A stretch of 36,222 nt of DNA from a virus. The first letter of the stretch is position 1. Each line of letters starts with the position of its first letter. Below are positions 3,460-9,201 of the stretch, one piece after another. A program made the translations under genes and the position numbers. Below the pieces are notes generated by a model. That model made no database searches, had not been told where the DNA came from, and saw only the letters and a program-made list of their open reading frames with translations. The stretch is from positions 1 to 36,222 of the IMG/VR virus record IMGVR_UViG_3300021092_000104; one strand, written 5' to 3'.

Positions 3460-4061
3460 ACTTCCGTATCCTTCATAGGTAGTTCTCCTCCATTTTTAGG
3501 GTCGGTATCTTCTACCCAGTTAGCCCACTCATCATAGGTCATAGCTCGAGTGAATGGGTCGTTGTCACCACGCTCATACACGTCGAACACAATGCCCTCG
3601 TCTGTAAGCGTAATAGTCATTATCCGGCCATCGATCAGGTTGATGAGATGTCTTGACGTGCATTGTGGAACTTGGGTCATACCATGCGATTCTTGTGGAT
3701 CTTGGTGCCGGACAGAGGTTCGTGCATTAGGCACGTTATGCCAGTCGTGATGAAACTCCAAAAATGCCTCAAGGTTGAAAGCATCACACAGTGTTCTAGC
3801 TGTCACCGGGGCAGGAAAAACATCATACAGTGTTTCATTTGGTAGCTCGATAAGGGTAGTTTCCGGGTCGTTCCCTTCAAAGATGAGGGTTATCGCGTCA
3901 ATGCAGGGCTTGACAAAAACTCGGTCAACACGCGGATAGTGATTAGACGTGAGATGCCACTCCATAATGTCTTCGAGTGTCATAGGGGGCTCGTTCAACT
4001 CACCGTTTTCCAGCCAGGCGTAATACTCACCAAGCATGGAATAGATTTGCATTGCTCCCAT
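3456..4061 (-). CDS. Hypothetical protein, 201 aa
   Basis: The start ATG 4061-4059 overlaps the upstream TAA as TAATG. The protein is acidic with Trp- and His-containing patches (EFHHDWHNVPNARTS). A central helical stretch carries PVTARTLCDAFNLEAFLEF, and the C-terminal part looks beta-rich (GRIMTITLTDEGIVFDVYE). It has no signal peptide. It is the largest gene of this accessory block. I do not recognise the family. Confidence 0.65.
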   Translation of the reverse strand: MGAMQIYSMLGEYYAWLENGELNEPPMTLEDIMEWHLTSNHYPRVDRVFVKPCIDAITLIFEGNDPETTLIELPNETLYDVFPAPVTARTLCDAFNLEAFLEFHHDWHNVPNARTSVRHQDPQESHGMTQVPQCTSRHLINLIDGRIMTITLTDEGIVFDVYERGDNDPFTRAMTYDEWANWVEDTDPKNGGELPMKDTEV

Positions 4062-4459
4062 TACTTTTTTACTTTCTTATTCTTGTTCGGCCTTTTACCC
4101 AAGTCTTTCAAAGTGATGTTGAGGCGTTCGCATACCATGAAAGCTTGAAATGAGTCAGTTGGATCATCTCCCCATGATTCTCCCCCGGTAAGTGCAATGG
4201 TCATGCCGTTCGCAAACTTGTATCTGCCGGAGTCACGACGCTTTTCGTCGTAGACGGTTTCAACACAACTGTTCAGAAAAAACAGAACATCTCGTGGCAA
4301 GATTTCTCGATCTGGGTCATCAAACAGATAGAACTCGCTTGCCAAAGTGTTGAGTGTCTTTTCAAAGTTCTCATTGTCTACAAGTTTTTGTGCGTTCTTT
4401 TTGGCTTGAAGTTCAGTCACTTGAAGTTCATTGATGGAAAAGTTGAAATCAGCACCCAC
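4061..4459 (-). CDS. Hypothetical protein, 132 aa, GTG start
   Basis: The start is GTG 4459-4457 with a GAGGAG ribosome site 6 bases upstream; that site lies inside the 3' end of the tiny gene at 4461-4541. The N-terminus is helical (INELQVTELQAKKNAQKLVD), the middle contains DREILPRDVLFFLNSCVETVY, and the end is Lys-rich (GKRPNKNKKVKK). The phrase KFANGMTIALTGGESWGD recalls small conserved phage proteins that begin with a substrate-like beta hairpin, but I cannot assign it. Confidence 0.65.
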   Translation of the reverse strand: MGADFNFSINELQVTELQAKKNAQKLVDNENFEKTLNTLASEFYLFDDPDREILPRDVLFFLNSCVETVYDEKRRDSGRYKFANGMTIALTGGESWGDDPTDSFQAFMVCERLNITLKDLGKRPNKNKKVKK

Positions 4460-4460
4460 G

Positions 4461-4541
4461 TCAGTCTCCTCGTACTTTTAAGTAGATCAATGAGAGCATC
4501 GTAACAACGAATAAATAGTAAAACACCATTGATTTGCTCAT
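4461..4541 (-). CDS. 26-residue single-pass membrane microprotein
   Basis: This short frame runs from ATG 4541-4539, overlapping the upstream TGA as ATGA, to TGA 4463-4461, one base ahead of the GTG of the next gene. Nearly the whole product is one hydrophobic segment, about residues 5-22 (VFYYLFVVTMLSLIYL), followed by a short basic end. It fills what would otherwise be a gap of about 80 bases exactly, with coupling at both ends, which argues that it is real. A role in the host membrane is likely but unspecified. Confidence 0.55.
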   Translation of the reverse strand: MSKSMVFYYLFVVTMLSLIYLKVRGD

Positions 4542-4726
4542 TTAACTTGCTCCGGTGCGTGACTTTTGGCGGGTAGTTCGCGGGGCTCAATGGCAGGTTT
4601 GTTTTGATTTACAAACAAACATGGCTCAGAATCCATCATTAACTTGATGAGTAAAGCAGGCTGAATGTTCGTTGTTTTTTGTTCTCGCTTGTATTCCTCG
4701 ATGTCGTGGGTGTCCCTGCTCGTCAT
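4538..4726 (-). CDS. Small hypothetical protein, 62 aa
   Basis: I prefer ATG 4726-4724, which overlaps the preceding TGA as TGATG; a GTG at 4747 would lengthen it by 7 residues. The first half is charged (TSRDTHDIEEYKREQK), the middle hydrophobic (ALLIKLMMDSEPCLFV) and the end Pro/Lys/Glu-rich. The hydrophobic part is too short for a confident membrane segment. It sits between two small membrane proteins and may act with them. Function is unknown. Confidence 0.55.
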   Translation of the reverse strand: MTSRDTHDIEEYKREQKTTNIQPALLIKLMMDSEPCLFVNQNKPAIEPRELPAKSHAPEQVK

Positions 4727-4890
4727 CAGAAGTTGTTCCCAATGCACGATGACGCTAAAGCGGCCATAAATACAAAGTAAAGCAGGATTCCACCGGTAAG
4801 CAAATACTTACCAAATGTACGATACTTTCTAACGTATTTGTATTCGTTTCTCATTGGCATGGCCCAGTCACCCCACTTTTCATTATTCAT
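4726..4890 (-). CDS. Small single-pass membrane protein, 54 aa
   Basis: The start ATG 4890-4888 has a GAGGG ribosome site 8 bases upstream and overlaps the preceding gene by 8 bases. The first 27 residues are charged and aromatic (EYKYVRKYRTFGKY); residues about 28-50 form one membrane helix (LLTGGILLYFVFMAALASSC). The positive charges before the helix predict a cytoplasmic N-terminus. Candidates include a spanin-like, antiholin-like or exclusion protein, none supported by a specific motif. Confidence 0.6.
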   Translation of the reverse strand: MNNEKWGDWAMPMRNEYKYVRKYRTFGKYLLTGGILLYFVFMAALASSCIGNNF

Positions 4891-5209
4891 CACTTGTGCC
4901 CTCAATTTGCTTACGCACGATTTCCATTGCGTGTGACACCTCCTGAATAAATGCTCTCCAAATGTCATCTCCGCCAAGAACGTAGTACCCGATTGATTCG
5001 ATCTGAGCGTCTGAACGCTCAAGCCACCACTTACGCATCTCTTTGGTAGATAGGTGTTCATTATGGGTTAGTTCGTATCGCAAATCTGATGCCATGAACG
5101 ACATACACAACCGGGGATCTAAACCGATGGTTGGTGCGTTCACAATGGATGTGATTATTTGAGTGTTATTTTCTTCAATTCGGTTTGGGTTTTCGCTCCA
5201 CTTTGCCAT
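4883..5209 (-). CDS. Hypothetical protein, 108 aa
   Basis: I start at ATG 5209-5207, five bases after the WhiB stop; a GTG at 5218 is the alternative and would overlap that stop. Neither has a strong ribosome site, so translation is probably coupled to WhiB. The sequence has a helical body (RLCMSFMASDLRYELTHNEH, ALEIVRKQIEG-like end). No motif is recognised. Co-expression with the WhiB regulator is likely. Confidence 0.6.
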   Translation of the reverse strand: MAKWSENPNRIEENNTQIITSIVNAPTIGLDPRLCMSFMASDLRYELTHNEHLSTKEMRKWWLERSDAQIESIGYYVLGGDDIWRAFIQEVSHAMEIVRKQIEGTSDE

Positions 5210-5214
5210 GTTGA

Positions 5215-5499
5215 TCACACTACCAGTTCACCATCAGCTTTTGCAACTTGCTTCATACGCCTGCGTTGTTTGTGTGACGTACCGCCCCAGATACCAACCT
5301 CGTCATTGTCAAGCGCGAATCTAAGACATGGGTCTTTGACCGGACATGAGTTGCACACTTGTATCGCTGACTTGTGATCTTCCCCGCGTTCAAGAATAAA
5401 CAGTGATGGACTTGATGACCTGCATTTGGCGTGTTGTCTCCATTGTGGGTCATCACGCTCGATAAGGGTCAGAGCGTCATAAACGTAATCGTCACTCAT
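5215..5499 (-). CDS. WhiB-family iron-sulfur transcriptional regulator, 94 aa
   Basis: WhiB-like proteins carry a [4Fe-4S] cluster and act on transcription, usually by binding the primary sigma factor region 4. Cys26, Cys49, Cys52 and Cys58 give the family pattern C...CxxCxxxxxC, followed by the turn GIWGG (69-73) and a basic Arg/Lys tail (HKQRRRMKQ) that contacts DNA. I choose ATG 5499 because of the GGAGG site 4 bases upstream; the longer frame from 5568 overlaps the neighbouring gene. Phage WhiB proteins (mycobacteriophage TM4) are known to interfere with host whiB2 and cause superinfection exclusion; the same role here is inference. Confidence 0.93.
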   Translation of the reverse strand: MSDDYVYDALTLIERDDPQWRQHAKCRSSSPSLFILERGEDHKSAIQVCNSCPVKDPCLRFALDNDEVGIWGGTSHKQRRRMKQVAKADGELVV

Positions 5500-5830
5500 T
5501 GTTCCTCCAAAATCCGAATAATGCTCCATCTCCTTCTGTTGTAGTAAAAGAACAACCATCTGGAGCAATCACATCCAGTACCGCAAAAAGATACTGAGCC
5601 AGGTCGTACTGGTCTTGCAGATCTTCGTCGGTCAAATCCTCAAGGCTGAGTTTGCTGAACACGTCAGACCACTCAGGCAAAACAACATCGTTGTAGTAGA
5701 TTTTGTTGCGCTCACTCGAGTGCAAAAGTACGTCTGAGCAACGAACAATCAGATCGACTGTTCGCAGTGTTCCTTCCGACACCACCGTGTCTACCCATGT
5801 GTCATCAAGCTTGAGAGGTTGTTTCTCCAT
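5492..5830 (-). CDS. Acidic hypothetical protein, 112 aa
   Basis: I start at ATG 5830-5828, with AAGGAG 7 bases upstream, rather than at the distal ATG 5878, which lies inside the upstream gene. The protein is acidic with a helical core (LSLEDLTDEDLQDQYDLAQY) and a C-terminal beta-like stretch ending FGFWRNNE. Its end overlaps the WhiB start by 8 bases, and the WhiB ribosome site lies within its last codons, so the two are coupled. Function is unknown; it could be a partner or modulator of WhiB. Confidence 0.6.
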   Translation of the reverse strand: MEKQPLKLDDTWVDTVVSEGTLRTVDLIVRCSDVLLHSSERNKIYYNDVVLPEWSDVFSKLSLEDLTDEDLQDQYDLAQYLFAVLDVIAPDGCSFTTTEGDGALFGFWRNNE

Positions 5831-6008
5831 CCCGGTTCTCCTTGTTGCCATGATACGGCTTCTTACCGCCTTTGACAACTGGTGTCAGGGGTAGCCATTT
5901 GTCTTTGTGCGAACTTCCCCCACAGGGGTGCATAGGGGGTTCAGAGGGTTTGATGTGGAGAACGATCTTCGCCCCACAGCGTTCGCAATAGTAGGTCGTG
6001 GCTGGCAT
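5805..6008 (-). CDS. Small zinc-ribbon-like protein, 67 aa
   Basis: The start ATG 6008-6006 lies 20 bases after the lysin stop; no strong ribosome site is seen. Cys8/Cys11 (YCERCG) and a His27-Pro-Cys29 pair separated by the phrase LHIKPSEPPMH resemble a small zinc protein family seen in many actinobacteriophages, as I recall them. The C-terminus is basic and polar (KGGKKPYHGNKENRD). DNA or RNA binding is plausible; no function is established. Confidence 0.6.
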   Translation of the reverse strand: MPATTYYCERCGAKIVLHIKPSEPPMHPCGGSSHKDKWLPLTPVVKGGKKPYHGNKENRDGETTSQA

Positions 6009-6028
6009 AGCTGCCAGTCTAGTAGAAC

Positions 6029-6574
6029 TTACGAGCCAGAAGTGGCTTTCCAGTGCCCAAGGCCCCCATTGTCGTAAAGGTACTTGGCAACCCGGAGGTT
6101 GCAGTCCAGGGTAAGCAAGAGCTCGAGACCCCCACCACAGATGTTCTTGGTGACGGTTCTCCATGACGAGTTGATTTGAAGTAGGCCGGAGTCGTACGAC
6201 CCATTTTTGTTGAGAGTCCAGGTGATGTTGCCTTGATCATCCCACTTGGCGTTGACTGCCTTGATCCTACACCTAGACTCCCTCCACGCAATGTAGGAGA
6301 ACTTCTTGGGAGGCAAACCATACTGTTTGAAATAGGGCTCCCATCTGGGGCATCGTCGGTCAGATTCGTTTCCAACGTATTTGTCGTCTGGAATGGTGGT
6401 AGTAGCTGTTTCCCCTATTGTTGTCACCGGGGTAGTGGTAGTAGTAGTGGTGGTGGTGGTAATAACCGGTTCGGTAGTGCTTTGTTCTGATTCTGTTGGC
6501 TGTGTCACTCCGTAGATCGTTGCAACCACGAGGTTGGTGATCATCAGGGCAAGCACCGCAGGAACTTTAAACAC
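6029..6574 (-). CDS. Membrane-anchored or secreted lysozyme/transglycosylase-like protein, 181 aa
   Basis: It probably cleaves peptidoglycan. A hydrophobic N-terminal segment (residues about 3-22) is a signal peptide or anchor, followed by a Thr-rich linker (about 32-61, with a run of ten Thr) and a C-terminal domain from about residue 74. That domain carries the lysozyme-like hallmarks WRESRC, with the likely catalytic Glu99, and DSGLLQIN (128-135), as in soluble lytic transglycosylases and resuscitation-factor-like domains. Four Cys (75, 102, 146, 158) could form two disulfides, which fits export. The start is GTG 6574-6572 with AGGAG 5 bases upstream. It follows a terminator, so it may be transcribed separately from the genes at 6641-7706. 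Endolysin is the likely role; a virion-associated or exclusion function is possible. Confidence 0.8.
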   Translation of the reverse strand: MFKVPAVLALMITNLVVATIYGVTQPTESEQSTTEPVITTTTTTTTTTPVTTIGETATTTIPDDKYVGNESDRRCPRWEPYFKQYGLPPKKFSYIAWRESRCRIKAVNAKWDDQGNITWTLNKNGSYDSGLLQINSSWRTVTKNICGGGLELLLTLDCNLRVAKYLYDNGGLGHWKATSGS

Positions 6575-6593
6575 TCTGTCTCCTTTGTTTGGT

Positions 6594-6635
6594 TAATAAA
6601 AATGGCTCGAACAAAGCAAGACGCTGTGTTGAGCC
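6594..6635 (-). terminator. Intrinsic terminator after WhiB gene
   Basis: On the minus strand GGCTCAACACAGC (6635-6623) pairs with GCTTTGTTCGAGCC (6617-6604) across a 5-base loop, with one bulge and one mismatch, and is followed by ATTTTTATT. It begins 5 bases after the TAG of the WhiB gene at 6641-7063. Stem plus U-tract makes this the best terminator in the window for the coding strand. Confidence 0.8.
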
Positions 6636-6640
6636 TGTAT

Positions 6641-7063
6641 CTATTTTACCGTACCAAGGGAGTTGAACAACGCAAAATGAACTTTTTTAACTTTGTAGCT
6701 TTGCCCTAAACCGGGAACAAAACTGAGATCGTATGGTGTGTCACACGCCTCTTTGTGGGCTTGTGCGCACTTTTTATTGGTAGAACCTTGTCGAAAGCGA
6801 ACAAATGTTTCTGTTTCAGCCAAATGTTTTATTTTTTGTGGAGATTTAAACGGAATGCGTTCTTTTGGAGTTAGCCCACCCCACATACCCCAGATCTCTT
6901 TTTTTCCAGATTCAAGACACTGCTTCCATACCGGACATGACGCGCAAACGGCTCGAGCAATGTCATAGTAGGGTTGTTGATCTTCAACATCCTCGGGTGG
7001 AAACCAAAAGTCTCCATTAAGTCTTCGACACTTGGCTTCGAGTACCCAATCAGGAGTTTCCAT
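6641..7063 (-). CDS. WhiB-family regulator with C-terminal extension, 140 aa
   Basis: Cys12, Cys40, Cys43 and Cys49 form the WhiB [4Fe-4S] pattern, and WGMWGG (58-63) followed by LTPKER is the family's turn and DNA-binding start. The core ends near residue 70; a further 70 residues carry two more Cys (99 and 107) and a basic end, which is longer than usual. The start ATG 7063-7061 lies inside the end of the DUF6378-like gene, a 14-base overlap with only a weak ribosome site, so translation is probably coupled. It is the last gene before the terminator at 6594-6635 and lies downstream of the promoter at 7739-7768, so it is likely expressed as a defined three-gene unit. Confidence 0.92.
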   Translation of the reverse strand: METPDWVLEAKCRRLNGDFWFPPEDVEDQQPYYDIARAVCASCPVWKQCLESGKKEIWGMWGGLTPKERIPFKSPQKIKHLAETETFVRFRQGSTNKKCAQAHKEACDTPYDLSFVPGLGQSYKVKKVHFALFNSLGTVK

Positions 7064-7415
7064 TTTGTTCCATTTTCTTATGTATTGCCATTGATAGACA
7101 ACCTAAATACCCGATGGCATCAACAAGTGAATCATGGTGTAGAACGTCTTTTTCTAAATTGGTACGGAGTCGAGCCAACTTTACGCACACCATGAACAAG
7201 ATGGCTTGTTCTACGGTAAGAGAAATCCCAGTAGTGGCTTCAAAAAGATCTCGTACTTTGGTGTAATCGTTCAACGGATGACTGTAGTCAGCTTGACGTT
7301 TTCCATTGATAAGCTTGAACGCTTCAACAACAACTTCTGAGCCATCACTGAAATTTGGGTTCTTGTTGTATTCAAAGATAAAGGCGTTGCCACGAATGTC
7401 GTCACCTATTGCCAT
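7050..7415 (-). CDS. DUF6378-like phage protein, 121 aa
   Basis: The central pattern NGKRQADYSHPLNDYTKV, then LTVEQAILFMVCVKLARL and HHDSLVDAIGYLGCL, matches a widespread family of phage proteins that I know as DUF6378. The helical layout with conserved Asp, His and Glu suggests an all-alpha domain that may bind nucleotide and metal (MazG-like architecture), but that activity is inference. The start ATG 7415-7413 has an AAGGAT ribosome site. It lies between the 85-residue gene and the WhiB gene in one promoter-terminator unit. Confidence 0.75.
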   Translation of the reverse strand: MAIGDDIRGNAFIFEYNKNPNFSDGSEVVVEAFKLINGKRQADYSHPLNDYTKVRDLFEATTGISLTVEQAILFMVCVKLARLRTNLEKDVLHHDSLVDAIGYLGCLSMAIHKKMEQNGNS

Positions 7416-7448
7416 TGCAAATCCTTATTGTGTTGAACTTGAGAAAAA

Positions 7449-7706
7449 TTACTTGTTGTTACGATGCCATTCACTGAGGGCTTGAAGTAAGGAAGCCATG
7501 TGTCCTGACGGATCTTCGATTTCATCTTCCATTGCCCTACAGTAACCATTGGCCGCTTTAATGACCTTTTCTGCGTTGGCAAGTTTGGAAATCAGGGCAT
7601 TCACGGTTTCTCGGAGTTCACGCTTGTCAGTATGCGCGTACTCCAAAGAAAGCTGTAAATCCCGGATTACTGAGTGTTCATAGGCAATTGCCATGTCCAC
7701 TGCCAT
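7449..7706 (-). CDS. Hypothetical helical protein, 85 aa
   Basis: It is the first gene after the promoter at 7739-7768, with a predicted leader of about 25 bases. The start ATG 7706-7704 has only a weak GAGAT-type ribosome site. The whole product reads as two or three long helices with heptad-like spacing (LQLSLEYAHTDKRELRETV, LISKLANAEKVIKAA), so a coiled-coil dimer is likely. Function is unknown; its position suggests early expression with the WhiB gene. Confidence 0.65.
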   Translation of the reverse strand: MAVDMAIAYEHSVIRDLQLSLEYAHTDKRELRETVNALISKLANAEKVIKAANGYCRAMEDEIEDPSGHMASLLQALSEWHRNNK

Positions 7707-7738
7707 ACCGATCTCGCTTTCGATAGTTACTACTATCT

Positions 7739-7768
7739 AATTTAGCACTATACAGCGAAACTTGTCAA
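7739..7768 (-). promoter_or_regulatory. Sigma70-type promoter
   Basis: On the minus strand a perfect TTGACA (7768-7763) and TAAATT (7744-7739) are separated by 18 bases. The -35 box overlaps the TGA of the 478-residue gene. The predicted start point lies near 7731, about 25 bases ahead of the gene starting at 7706. It is the best -35/-10 pair I found. Confidence 0.7.
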
Positions 7769-9201
7769 GTAACCTCTCCCAAATCTAAAACGTCGGTGTA
7801 CAGTCGGTCAGTCTGGCCTCGATCAAAACCCCCATTGGGGAGTTGTTTGCTTGCCTCACCGACATGTGTTCCAAAGATTCGGGAAAGCACTCCAGATGAC
7901 CCCCTGGCCTCTACTTCTAAGCGCACCATGTCTCGGTTATCGCTAATGTCTTTAAACTTCTCAACTAGGGAAAACACCCTCTCCACCTCGGTAGACAGGT
8001 TGGGGTCAAGACCTTGTCCTTCGAGCTCTTCGGCAAAACGAGCGAACAGCACTCGGCTTACTTGCATCTCAAGCATTGCCCGGAGGGCAGACTGTAGTTG
8101 GTCTTTAGTACGGATCTCAACAGGTAGTTTAAAACCGCATTCTGAATTTTCTCTGAATATGGGACATCGAGAGCTCAAATAGCAACTATTACACTGCCTC
8201 AAAAGATTGGATTCGTACCGAATTGTGGGTGTTTTTTCAATTCCAAGCTGTTCACTTTCCCCTGATTCCATTAAGTTTTCTGCAAGTTGTGGGGTAACGT
8301 ATTCAACGCCCATAACTGGTAGCAATACTTTGTCTTTTTCGTGCCGCGGTACAGGTATTGATATATCAATACTTGTACCTGTAGAAACCACTTTTGGCGC
8401 AGTTGGTGTTTGGTCGATATAGTTACTATTTGTCTCAATTTCTGATAGACCCAAAAACTCGTTTGAGTCGTCTTTCGGGGGGTCATAGTCCCCAAAATTC
8501 CTCGACTCCCAAGCCTTCCAAGACATGATTGCCAGACGTGCCACCTCGGCATTATCATCTTCGTCAATGGCCTGAATGTTTATACCTAGACGGATAATGT
8601 CCCCTCGGTGCTTCTTTCGGGAAGATTCCTTTTGCTGGGCGGGGTATCGGCGCAAGCCGTGACCATCCCAAACCTGTGTTTCCCCGTAGCGAACCGCGCT
8701 AGTCCATGATCCAACAATGGCGGAATCCCACTCGATGTTTTCAAGGGTTTCGGGCTTGGATGACAAAGCCACCAACTTGGCGTTCCATCGAGACATGGCA
8801 TTTCTGATCCGGGTCACAGTCTTGCCTGTAACGGCTTTGTCGCTTATGGCTACCCGACCATACTTCTGGCATAGCCATGACAAGCGTTCTAGGTCTTCGG
8901 GGTCGTTCCAGACTGGAATGTATTTATCATTCATCCACGATCCGTCATAATCCGGTCTGCCAATTACAGCGTGAATGTGGTCAATATGCTCTCGGATAAA
9001 GGCATCGTACCGGGCCACATCTTCGTCATTTTCTGACGTATAAACAACGACTTCTCCGCCTTTAAACATTTCTTCAAGGTTGACAGCCTTTTTCTTAGGG
9101 ATTTGAAAATGGGTCAAATTGATAGCAAATTTGGTGATATTTGAGGCAATCAAAAGGGAGCGAAAAGATGACTTTTCGGCATTAGAAAAATAAATCTTCA
9201 T
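7765..9201 (-). CDS. Two-part phage protein, TIM-barrel-like N-terminus and Cys-cluster C-terminus, 478 aa
   Basis: The start ATG 9201-9199 overlaps the upstream TGA as ATGA. Residues about 1-235 look like an alpha/beta enzyme domain; the stretch around 118-175 (AISDKAV, LVALSSKPETL, then WDS and SWTSAVRYG) recalls the TGT/DpdA transglycosylase barrel, though I cannot confirm catalytic residues. Residues about 240-330 are a low-complexity linker. Residues about 330-445 carry Cys337, Cys340, Cys346 and Cys355 followed by a helical region (LRAMLEMQVSRVLFARFAEE, SGVLSRIFG) that I associate with phage proteins sometimes called small terminase or DNA-binding. A combined DNA-modifying or packaging-recognition role is possible. 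The two neighbours upstream are probably functionally linked. Confidence 0.55.
   Translation of the reverse strand: MKIYFSNAEKSSFRSLLIASNITKFAINLTHFQIPKKKAVNLEEMFKGGEVVVYTSENDEDVARYDAFIREHIDHIHAVIGRPDYDGSWMNDKYIPVWNDPEDLERLSWLCQKYGRVAISDKAVTGKTVTRIRNAMSRWNAKLVALSSKPETLENIEWDSAIVGSWTSAVRYGETQVWDGHGLRRYPAQQKESSRKKHRGDIIRLGINIQAIDEDDNAEVARLAIMSWKAWESRNFGDYDPPKDDSNEFLGLSEIETNSNYIDQTPTAPKVVSTGTSIDISIPVPRHEKDKVLLPVMGVEYVTPQLAENLMESGESEQLGIEKTPTIRYESNLLRQCNSCYLSSRCPIFRENSECGFKLPVEIRTKDQLQSALRAMLEMQVSRVLFARFAEELEGQGLDPNLSTEVERVFSLVEKFKDISDNRDMVRLEVEARGSSGVLSRIFGTHVGEASKQLPNGGFDRGQTDRLYTDVLDLGEVT

Follow-up and report, generated by a model that had tools for sequence, protein, structure and literature searches.

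The DNA analysed here, called the window, is the entire IMG/VR record IMGVR_UViG_3300021092_000104 (36,222 bases) of an uncultured freshwater phage, and it holds two genes for WhiB-like (Wbl) proteins lying close together on the minus strand. One of the proteins is long and carries a C-terminal extension, and the other is compact:

6641 to 7063, minus strand: long WhiB-like protein of 140 amino acids (aa); PF02467, 51 bits; Cys 12, 40, 43 and 49; GMWGG turn.
6644 to 6853, minus strand: extension of the long protein, residues 71-140, a degraded HNH-type Cys module in which HGT and two of the three Cys of its relatives have been lost.
5215 to 5499, minus strand: compact WhiB-like protein of 94 aa; PF02467, 69 bits; Cys 26, 49, 52 and 58; GIWGG turn.

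An earlier sequence-only reading proposed two distinct WhiB genes at these places, and the open reading frames (ORFs), the Cys patterns and the Pfam scores, both above the curated PF02467 cut-off of 23.6 bits, agree with it. PHROG matches agree with this as well. The four-Cys pattern with CxxC-x5-C is present in both, and it is kept in all the unique long proteins (49/49) and all the unique second WhiB proteins (38/38) of relatives. As a control, four Cys plus W[GA]G were sought in the window and in 200 codon-block shuffles of it, which gave two frames and none, respectively. The Wbl turn has been given as G[I/V]W[G/A]G (PMC10245118); the compact protein fits this form, and the long one keeps the invariant Trp and Gly with Met for Ile or Val. 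The C-terminal AT-hook of WhiB7-type proteins (RGRP) was also looked for, and no RGR occurs in either sequence. The two proteins are indeed distinct, since they are identical at 27 of 77 aligned positions (35%).

The long gene is the last of a three-gene unit that spans 7706-6641 and is bounded by a promoter and a terminator:

7739 to 7768, minus strand: promoter of the unit, TTGACA-18-TAAATT, by consensus match; -35 element in 10 of 10 aligned loci, -10 element poor in four.
7449 to 7706, minus strand: gene that opens the unit, 85 aa, without a family match above cut-off; kept in seven of the eight loci compared (all but L009).
7050 to 7415, minus strand: middle gene of the unit, for a DUF6378 protein of 121 aa (PF19905, 47.7 bits; cut-off 27.1).
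6595 to 6635, minus strand: intrinsic terminator 3' of the long WhiB gene, with a hairpin at 6604-6635 and a T-run; fold z -4.94.

The promoter matches the consensus at 10 of 12 positions. Taken as a class, promoter-like sites are no commoner than expected by chance (7 observed and 11.2 expected between 3000 and 12000), and for this reason the support for this one is its conservation across loci. The -35 element is in place in all ten aligned loci (TTGACA in nine, CTGACA in L058), and it is followed after 18 nt by TAAATT or TACATT in six of them and after 17 nt by TACGCT, with 3/6 matches to TATAAT, in the other four. A dyad at the promoter was considered as a possible operator, which is not claimed: among the ten loci, shuffles were beaten only in the window (2/300) and in L058 (6/300). 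The terminator was not listed by the consensus scan; the segment 6590-6645 folds at -16.7 kcal/mol, a value equalled by none of 200 shuffles. In all 16 loci compared, several of them near copies, a hairpin with a T-run lies 3' of the long gene, with 0 to 2 of 40 shuffles per locus as good, and it is built from four unrelated stem sequences, as expected of selection on structure and not on sequence.

Promoter and terminator are thus confirmed and kept in relatives, and the long gene does close a unit of its own as had been suggested; this does not extend to the compact gene, which sits in the next gene group. The hairpin is separated from the next start codon by 29 nt, in which no promoter was seen, and the compact gene would therefore need either read-through or a promoter, as yet unproven, that lies beyond them. 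A second promoter for it at 5878-5850 was considered, but it is a consensus match alone and is not established.

Relatives were retrieved through each WhiB protein, through the 478-aa gene upstream and through profiles. From the best 80 of 320 relatives' loci, six did not qualify as loci with a long WhiB and were excluded (L201 and L227 are still among the sources of the records described next), which left 74 loci with 45 unique tails. Besides, 45 records were each searched with the Pfam WhiB model: the window, seven others (G001-G007), 13 more, and 24 from a 25-record set (G007 counted once). This set comes from the same 80 loci and was chosen for having no nearby second WhiB, or for size, so that it is not a random sample; 13 records found via the compact protein, with one WhiB each (G008-G020), were left out of the 45. 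There are near copies among the records, for instance G001, G002, G006 and the window.

Exactly two WhiB genes are found in 40 of the 45 records and three in none, which shows that the pairing is no accident of one contig. The five records with one WhiB are 4.3, 10.3, 11.4, 11.8 and 20.1 kb long, and the last of these (L183) reaches just 644 bases past its long gene. In five of seven near-relative loci with both genes, the long WhiB gene is followed by the lysozyme-like gene, then by the small gene with CxxC, one gene for about 110-128 aa and the compact WhiB gene; in the other two (L058 and L069) extra genes lie between the long and the compact one. Across the 74 loci a second WhiB falls within the retrieved stretch in 46, on the same strand in 19 and on the opposite strand in 27; the latter arrangement, with the second WhiB 0.8-2.3 kb off, is that of more distant lineages (27/74 loci). 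No second WhiB was seen in 15 loci despite at least 2.5 kb downstream, and 13 had less room. Twelve of those 15 were searched as whole records (all except L190, L211 and L242): nine hold a second WhiB 5.2-7.4 kb away, and three, of 10.3-11.8 kb, hold one WhiB. The second WhiB is so called by presence and not by ancestry with the compact protein of the window, and 14 of the 38 unique ones have a W[AN]G-type turn replacing [WF]GG. The two genes are linked by joint retention, not by one operon plan.

Two further observations concern these records. In L229 (94,522 bases) the two WhiB genes lie at opposite ends; were these ends joined, the genes would be some 2.4 kb from each other, a sign of a near-complete genome that is permuted. 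The WhiB genes of L107, L109, L114 and L125 are on contigs of genomes labelled Verrucomicrobiales, Saccharibacteria and Gammaproteobacteria; these could be contigs of actinophages that binning has assigned to a wrong host.

The extension of the long protein had been described as 70 residues with two more Cys. Both are present, at 99 and 107, beyond the four Cys of the family, but to call them two extra Cys is too simple: a CxCxxC module has degraded here, and Cys99 is the final Cys of this module, to which Cys107 does not belong. The motif HG[TS]-x3-R[YF]RQxCxCxxC, or one close to it, occurs in 42 of the 45 unique tails of long relatives, and it is absent only in the lineage of the window (the window, L054 and L007), which has lost HGT and two of the three Cys. 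Tails of six relatives were compared with PHROG profiles, and all six matched phrog_23251, a family of HNH endonucleases, near the C-terminus of the family (E 1.4e-6 to 0.014); among whole long proteins, 5 of 11 match an HNH profile at E 0.001. No Pfam model was over cut-off on the relatives' tails. The same motif is found near the C-terminus of HNH enzymes from Mycobacterium phage Alice (gp148) and Salmonella phage BPS17W1 (FDJ22_gp110), where HGTxxxYxxGC[KR]CEEC follows a nuclease domain and not a Wbl domain. The HNH resemblance is founded on the profile matches of the tails and on the Alice and BPS17W1 sequences, not on tblastn. An open-access literature search found no paper on a WhiB-HNH tail.

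The loss of HGT and of two module Cys, together with the lack of a family match for the window's own tail in the PHROG profile search, favours the view that this tail is a non-functional leftover, the rest of it drifting, and that the long protein functions as an ordinary Wbl protein. This is unlikely in our judgement, because R89, R91, Q92, C99 and H103 are kept in all 11 aligned rows of the tail, and because the ratio of nonsynonymous to synonymous substitution (dN/dS) of the tail is 0.115 for the window and L054, 0.270 for the window and L007 and 0.255 for L054 and L007 (rough values, from 67-71 codons), to be set beside 0.15-0.41 in relatives with an intact module. By these codon comparisons the tail of the window lineage appears to be under purifying selection despite the loss of the module. 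Since the likely metal ligands are lost and the tail is nevertheless selected, its contact would have changed rather than vanished.

Phages with two WhiB genes are known. WhiB has been reported as the most abundant regulator of actinobacteriophages in a 2021 survey, which counts 182 phages with two WhiB homologues each, from the hosts Mycobacterium, Propionibacterium and Gordonia, at 25-48% pairwise identity (PMC8612146). Several whiB genes, 'sometimes even in multiple copies', have also been described in freshwater actinophages (PMC10914622; PMC6802176), a likeness to the present group; the long and compact set, the HNH-type tail and the insulated unit are not described in the available parts of those two papers. 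A close parallel is that of cluster F (Cheoctovirus) phages such as RockyHorror (gp58/gp60), VRedHorse (57/59), Mozy (gp66/gp68), Nitzel (gp55/gp57) and Galactic (56/58), in which a WhiB of about 164 aa with a Cys-rich, HNH-like tail is followed within about 0.5 kb, on the same strand, by a compact WhiB. They differ in having one gene between the two (annotated as helix-turn-helix in two records), in that no terminator is reported, and in a tail with another type of Cys module, which matches phrog_1271 (5.1e-10) and phrog_15471 (4.1e-7). The weak HNH matches of LazerLemon and BENtherdunthat (0.0027 and 1e-4) were not used, as their tail queries included part of the WhiB domain. In cluster K, TM4 gp49 resembles the window's compact protein as a compact phage Wbl protein, whereas the Hammy and BarrelRoll records compared have one WhiB place each.

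A tree of WhiB proteins was built from 79 columns and 91 rows, leaving out near copies, duplicates and hits below 45 bits, and also the long-branch or low-information rows L172, L157, L167, L125_831, L111, L109, L110, L127 and L122. The 11 long proteins form one clade (100/97), and the 10 compact proteins fall into two supported groups, one of six that includes the window (98/87) and one of four (99/93). By the approximately unbiased (AU) test a single compact clade is not rejected (p 0.324), nor is a clade of long plus compact proteins (p 0.144); with 79 columns, joining the compact proteins to the compact ones of cluster F is weakly rejected (p 0.031), and joining the long proteins to the long ones of cluster F is not (p 0.093). 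The tree, which the sequence-only reading had called for, points to a split between long and compact proteins older than this phage group; paralogy and separate capture both fit, because the AU tests decide neither. When compared with solved chains, the compact protein scores best with the WhiB of 8dy9 (62.4 bits), ahead of WhiB4 (44.7), 8dy7 and 8dy9 being Streptomyces WhiB which we take to be of WhiB2 type. The long protein as a single sequence is about equidistant from the solved chains (22.6-29.3 bits), and as a profile it is nearest to WhiB1.

That long and compact proteins may still form one clade would suit a pair of duplicates doing the same job, retained for dosage or as a spare. Such redundancy is very unlikely, given that the two share 35% identity, have differing tails and stand in separate units, that the long proteins are a clade of their own, and that both are kept in 40 of 45 records.

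Regarding function, it has been reported that Wbl proteins contact region 4 of the sigma factor with the cluster and with four residues, namely two Phe, the Trp of the turn and an N-terminal Trp, and that changing F31, F32 or W76 of WhiB3 to Ala abolishes sigma binding (PMC10245118). In the alignment to WhiB3 and WhiB1, the long protein has aromatic residues at all four contact places (W6, W20, F21 and W61), and the compact protein has them at three (W20, F34 and W71), the remaining one being occupied by Ile35. From these residues both proteins are predicted to dock on the sigma factor of the host, the long one with a fuller set of contacts than the compact one. No Sigma70_r4 domain was over cut-off in 13 records of the group, which may be fragments, and the control genomes were positive. 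Phages E7 and F5 of 'Ca. Nanopelagicales' are reported to carry a whiB-like gene plus a sigma-70 factor (PMC10202952).

According to the 2021 survey, TM4 is the sole phage whose WhiB has been studied for its role in infection, where it inhibits host whiB2 and blocks superinfection, yielding a superinfection-resistant phenotype (PMC8612146). Besides, gp57 of the cluster F1 phage Girr, a WhiB of 92 aa, is severely toxic when overexpressed (PMC11075535); the name 'gp55' does not appear in the available text of that paper. These cases lend weight to the idea that the compact protein is chiefly a host-killing or superinfection-exclusion factor, with the long protein alone regulating phage genes and no set at all. 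We regard this as doubtful, since the two WhiB genes are retained together across records despite changes of order, strand or distance.

The explanation favoured here is that of two regulators docking on the host sigma factor with different targets; the family, the pair, the unit, the resemblance of the tail and the conservation are established, and the cluster, the sigma binding, the DNA contact, the timing and the targets are what we infer. Each WhiB would hold a [4Fe-4S] cluster and attach to region 4 of the primary sigma factor of the host, by which the host RNA polymerase would be redirected. The long protein, encoded in a promoter-terminator unit of its own, carries a C-terminal tail as well, and the Cys/His tail of nearly all relatives examined may contact DNA and aim the polymerase at phage promoters; the DNA contact is suggested because the module is shared with the C-terminus of phage HNH endonucleases. 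In the window lineage this contact would be altered, its metal ligands being gone. The compact protein would act like TM4 gp49, by disturbing promoters of the host, that of whiB2 among them. That the two are specialised Wbl regulators, kept as a fixed set that redirects host polymerase, the compact one on host promoters and the tailed long one aimed at DNA, has about an even chance of being right. Sequential or opposing control by the two WhiB proteins, as the sequence-only reading had it, is compatible with this, opposition itself not being visible in the sequence.

A further-reaching version, which we put forward as tentative and rather unlikely, is that in a large group of uncultured freshwater phages showing no clear sigma factor of their own the two Wbl proteins would be a built-in set for seizing the host primary sigma factor. 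The long one would be a Wbl protein joined to the DNA-contact tail of an HNH endonuclease, which aims the polymerase at phage promoters; the window lineage would have changed that aim by discarding the metal ligands, and the set would be kept even when the genes are on opposite strands or 5-7 kb apart.

Several results weigh against the favoured explanation. The HNH matches of single relatives are modest in their E values, the window's own tail has no match, and tblastn with one relative's tail gave weak hits (18 records, the best at E about 0.1, with E 0.1-0.2 for the matches to phage HNH endonucleases) and with a second relative's tail gave nothing. In the compact protein, Ile35 replaces a Phe whose change to Ala abolishes sigma binding in WhiB3, and the tree gives no supported grouping of the compact proteins with WhiB2. 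A sub-threshold Sigma70_r4 match (17.8 bits; cut-off 24.1) occurs in 2 of the 13 records. Finally, structure prediction gave models too poor for use (mean predicted local distance difference test score, pLDDT, 40.8 for the long and 54.2 for the compact protein). The sub-threshold matches just mentioned are in short frames, G002:36650-36763 and G003:31067-31180, possibly a small helix-turn-helix protein.

Other genes lie between the terminator and the compact gene, or next to the latter:

6029 to 6574, minus strand: 181 aa with a Thr-rich linker, lysozyme/transglycosylase-like (SLT 17.3 bits; cut-off 21.3, not reached); present in all eight loci compared.
5805 to 6008, minus strand: small gene, 67 aa, CxxC; 71.6% identity over 67 aa to L007:3053-3256, and start set by L007.
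5492 to 5878, minus strand: 128 aa, upstream of and overlapping the compact WhiB gene, start uncertain; kept in 7 of 7 loci showing the compact gene.
4883 to 5218, minus strand: 111 aa, from the ORF table, overlapping the end of the compact WhiB gene by 4 bases; relatives in L005 and L007.

The first of these proteins has a hydrophobic N-terminus, and its gene comes directly after the terminator. The synonymous divergence (dS) of the compact WhiB gene between the window and L054 is 0.079, and that of six neighbouring genes is 0.185-0.671; a recent exchange of the compact gene is possible. Before the long WhiB gene, the DUF6378 gene (7050-7415, minus strand) is replaced in L058 by two genes (L058:9782-10551) for DUF7768 and for DUF1599 (nucleotide modification associated). 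Upstream of the unit, the 478-aa gene (7765-9201, minus strand) matches phrog_887, 'queuine tRNA-ribosyltransferase' (E 1.4e-35), and a transglycosylase-like protein of this kind in a phage suggests 7-deazaguanine modification of DNA. Elsewhere, no tRNA and no Rfam match at gathering scores were found in the window, and a megablast search with 4001-9000 found no phage of the annotated collection close by DNA.

The pairing of WhiB genes is known already; what is new is the conserved unit, the HNH-type tail and the loss of the tail module in the window lineage. A group of phages with two WhiB proteins, a tail shared with HNH enzymes and a natural loss of Cys is a ready comparison for the roles of the two copies and for the way in which Wbl proteins of phages locate DNA. 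Should the tail contact DNA, the WhiB proteins of phages would be factors that dock on sigma and carry address labels taken from elsewhere.
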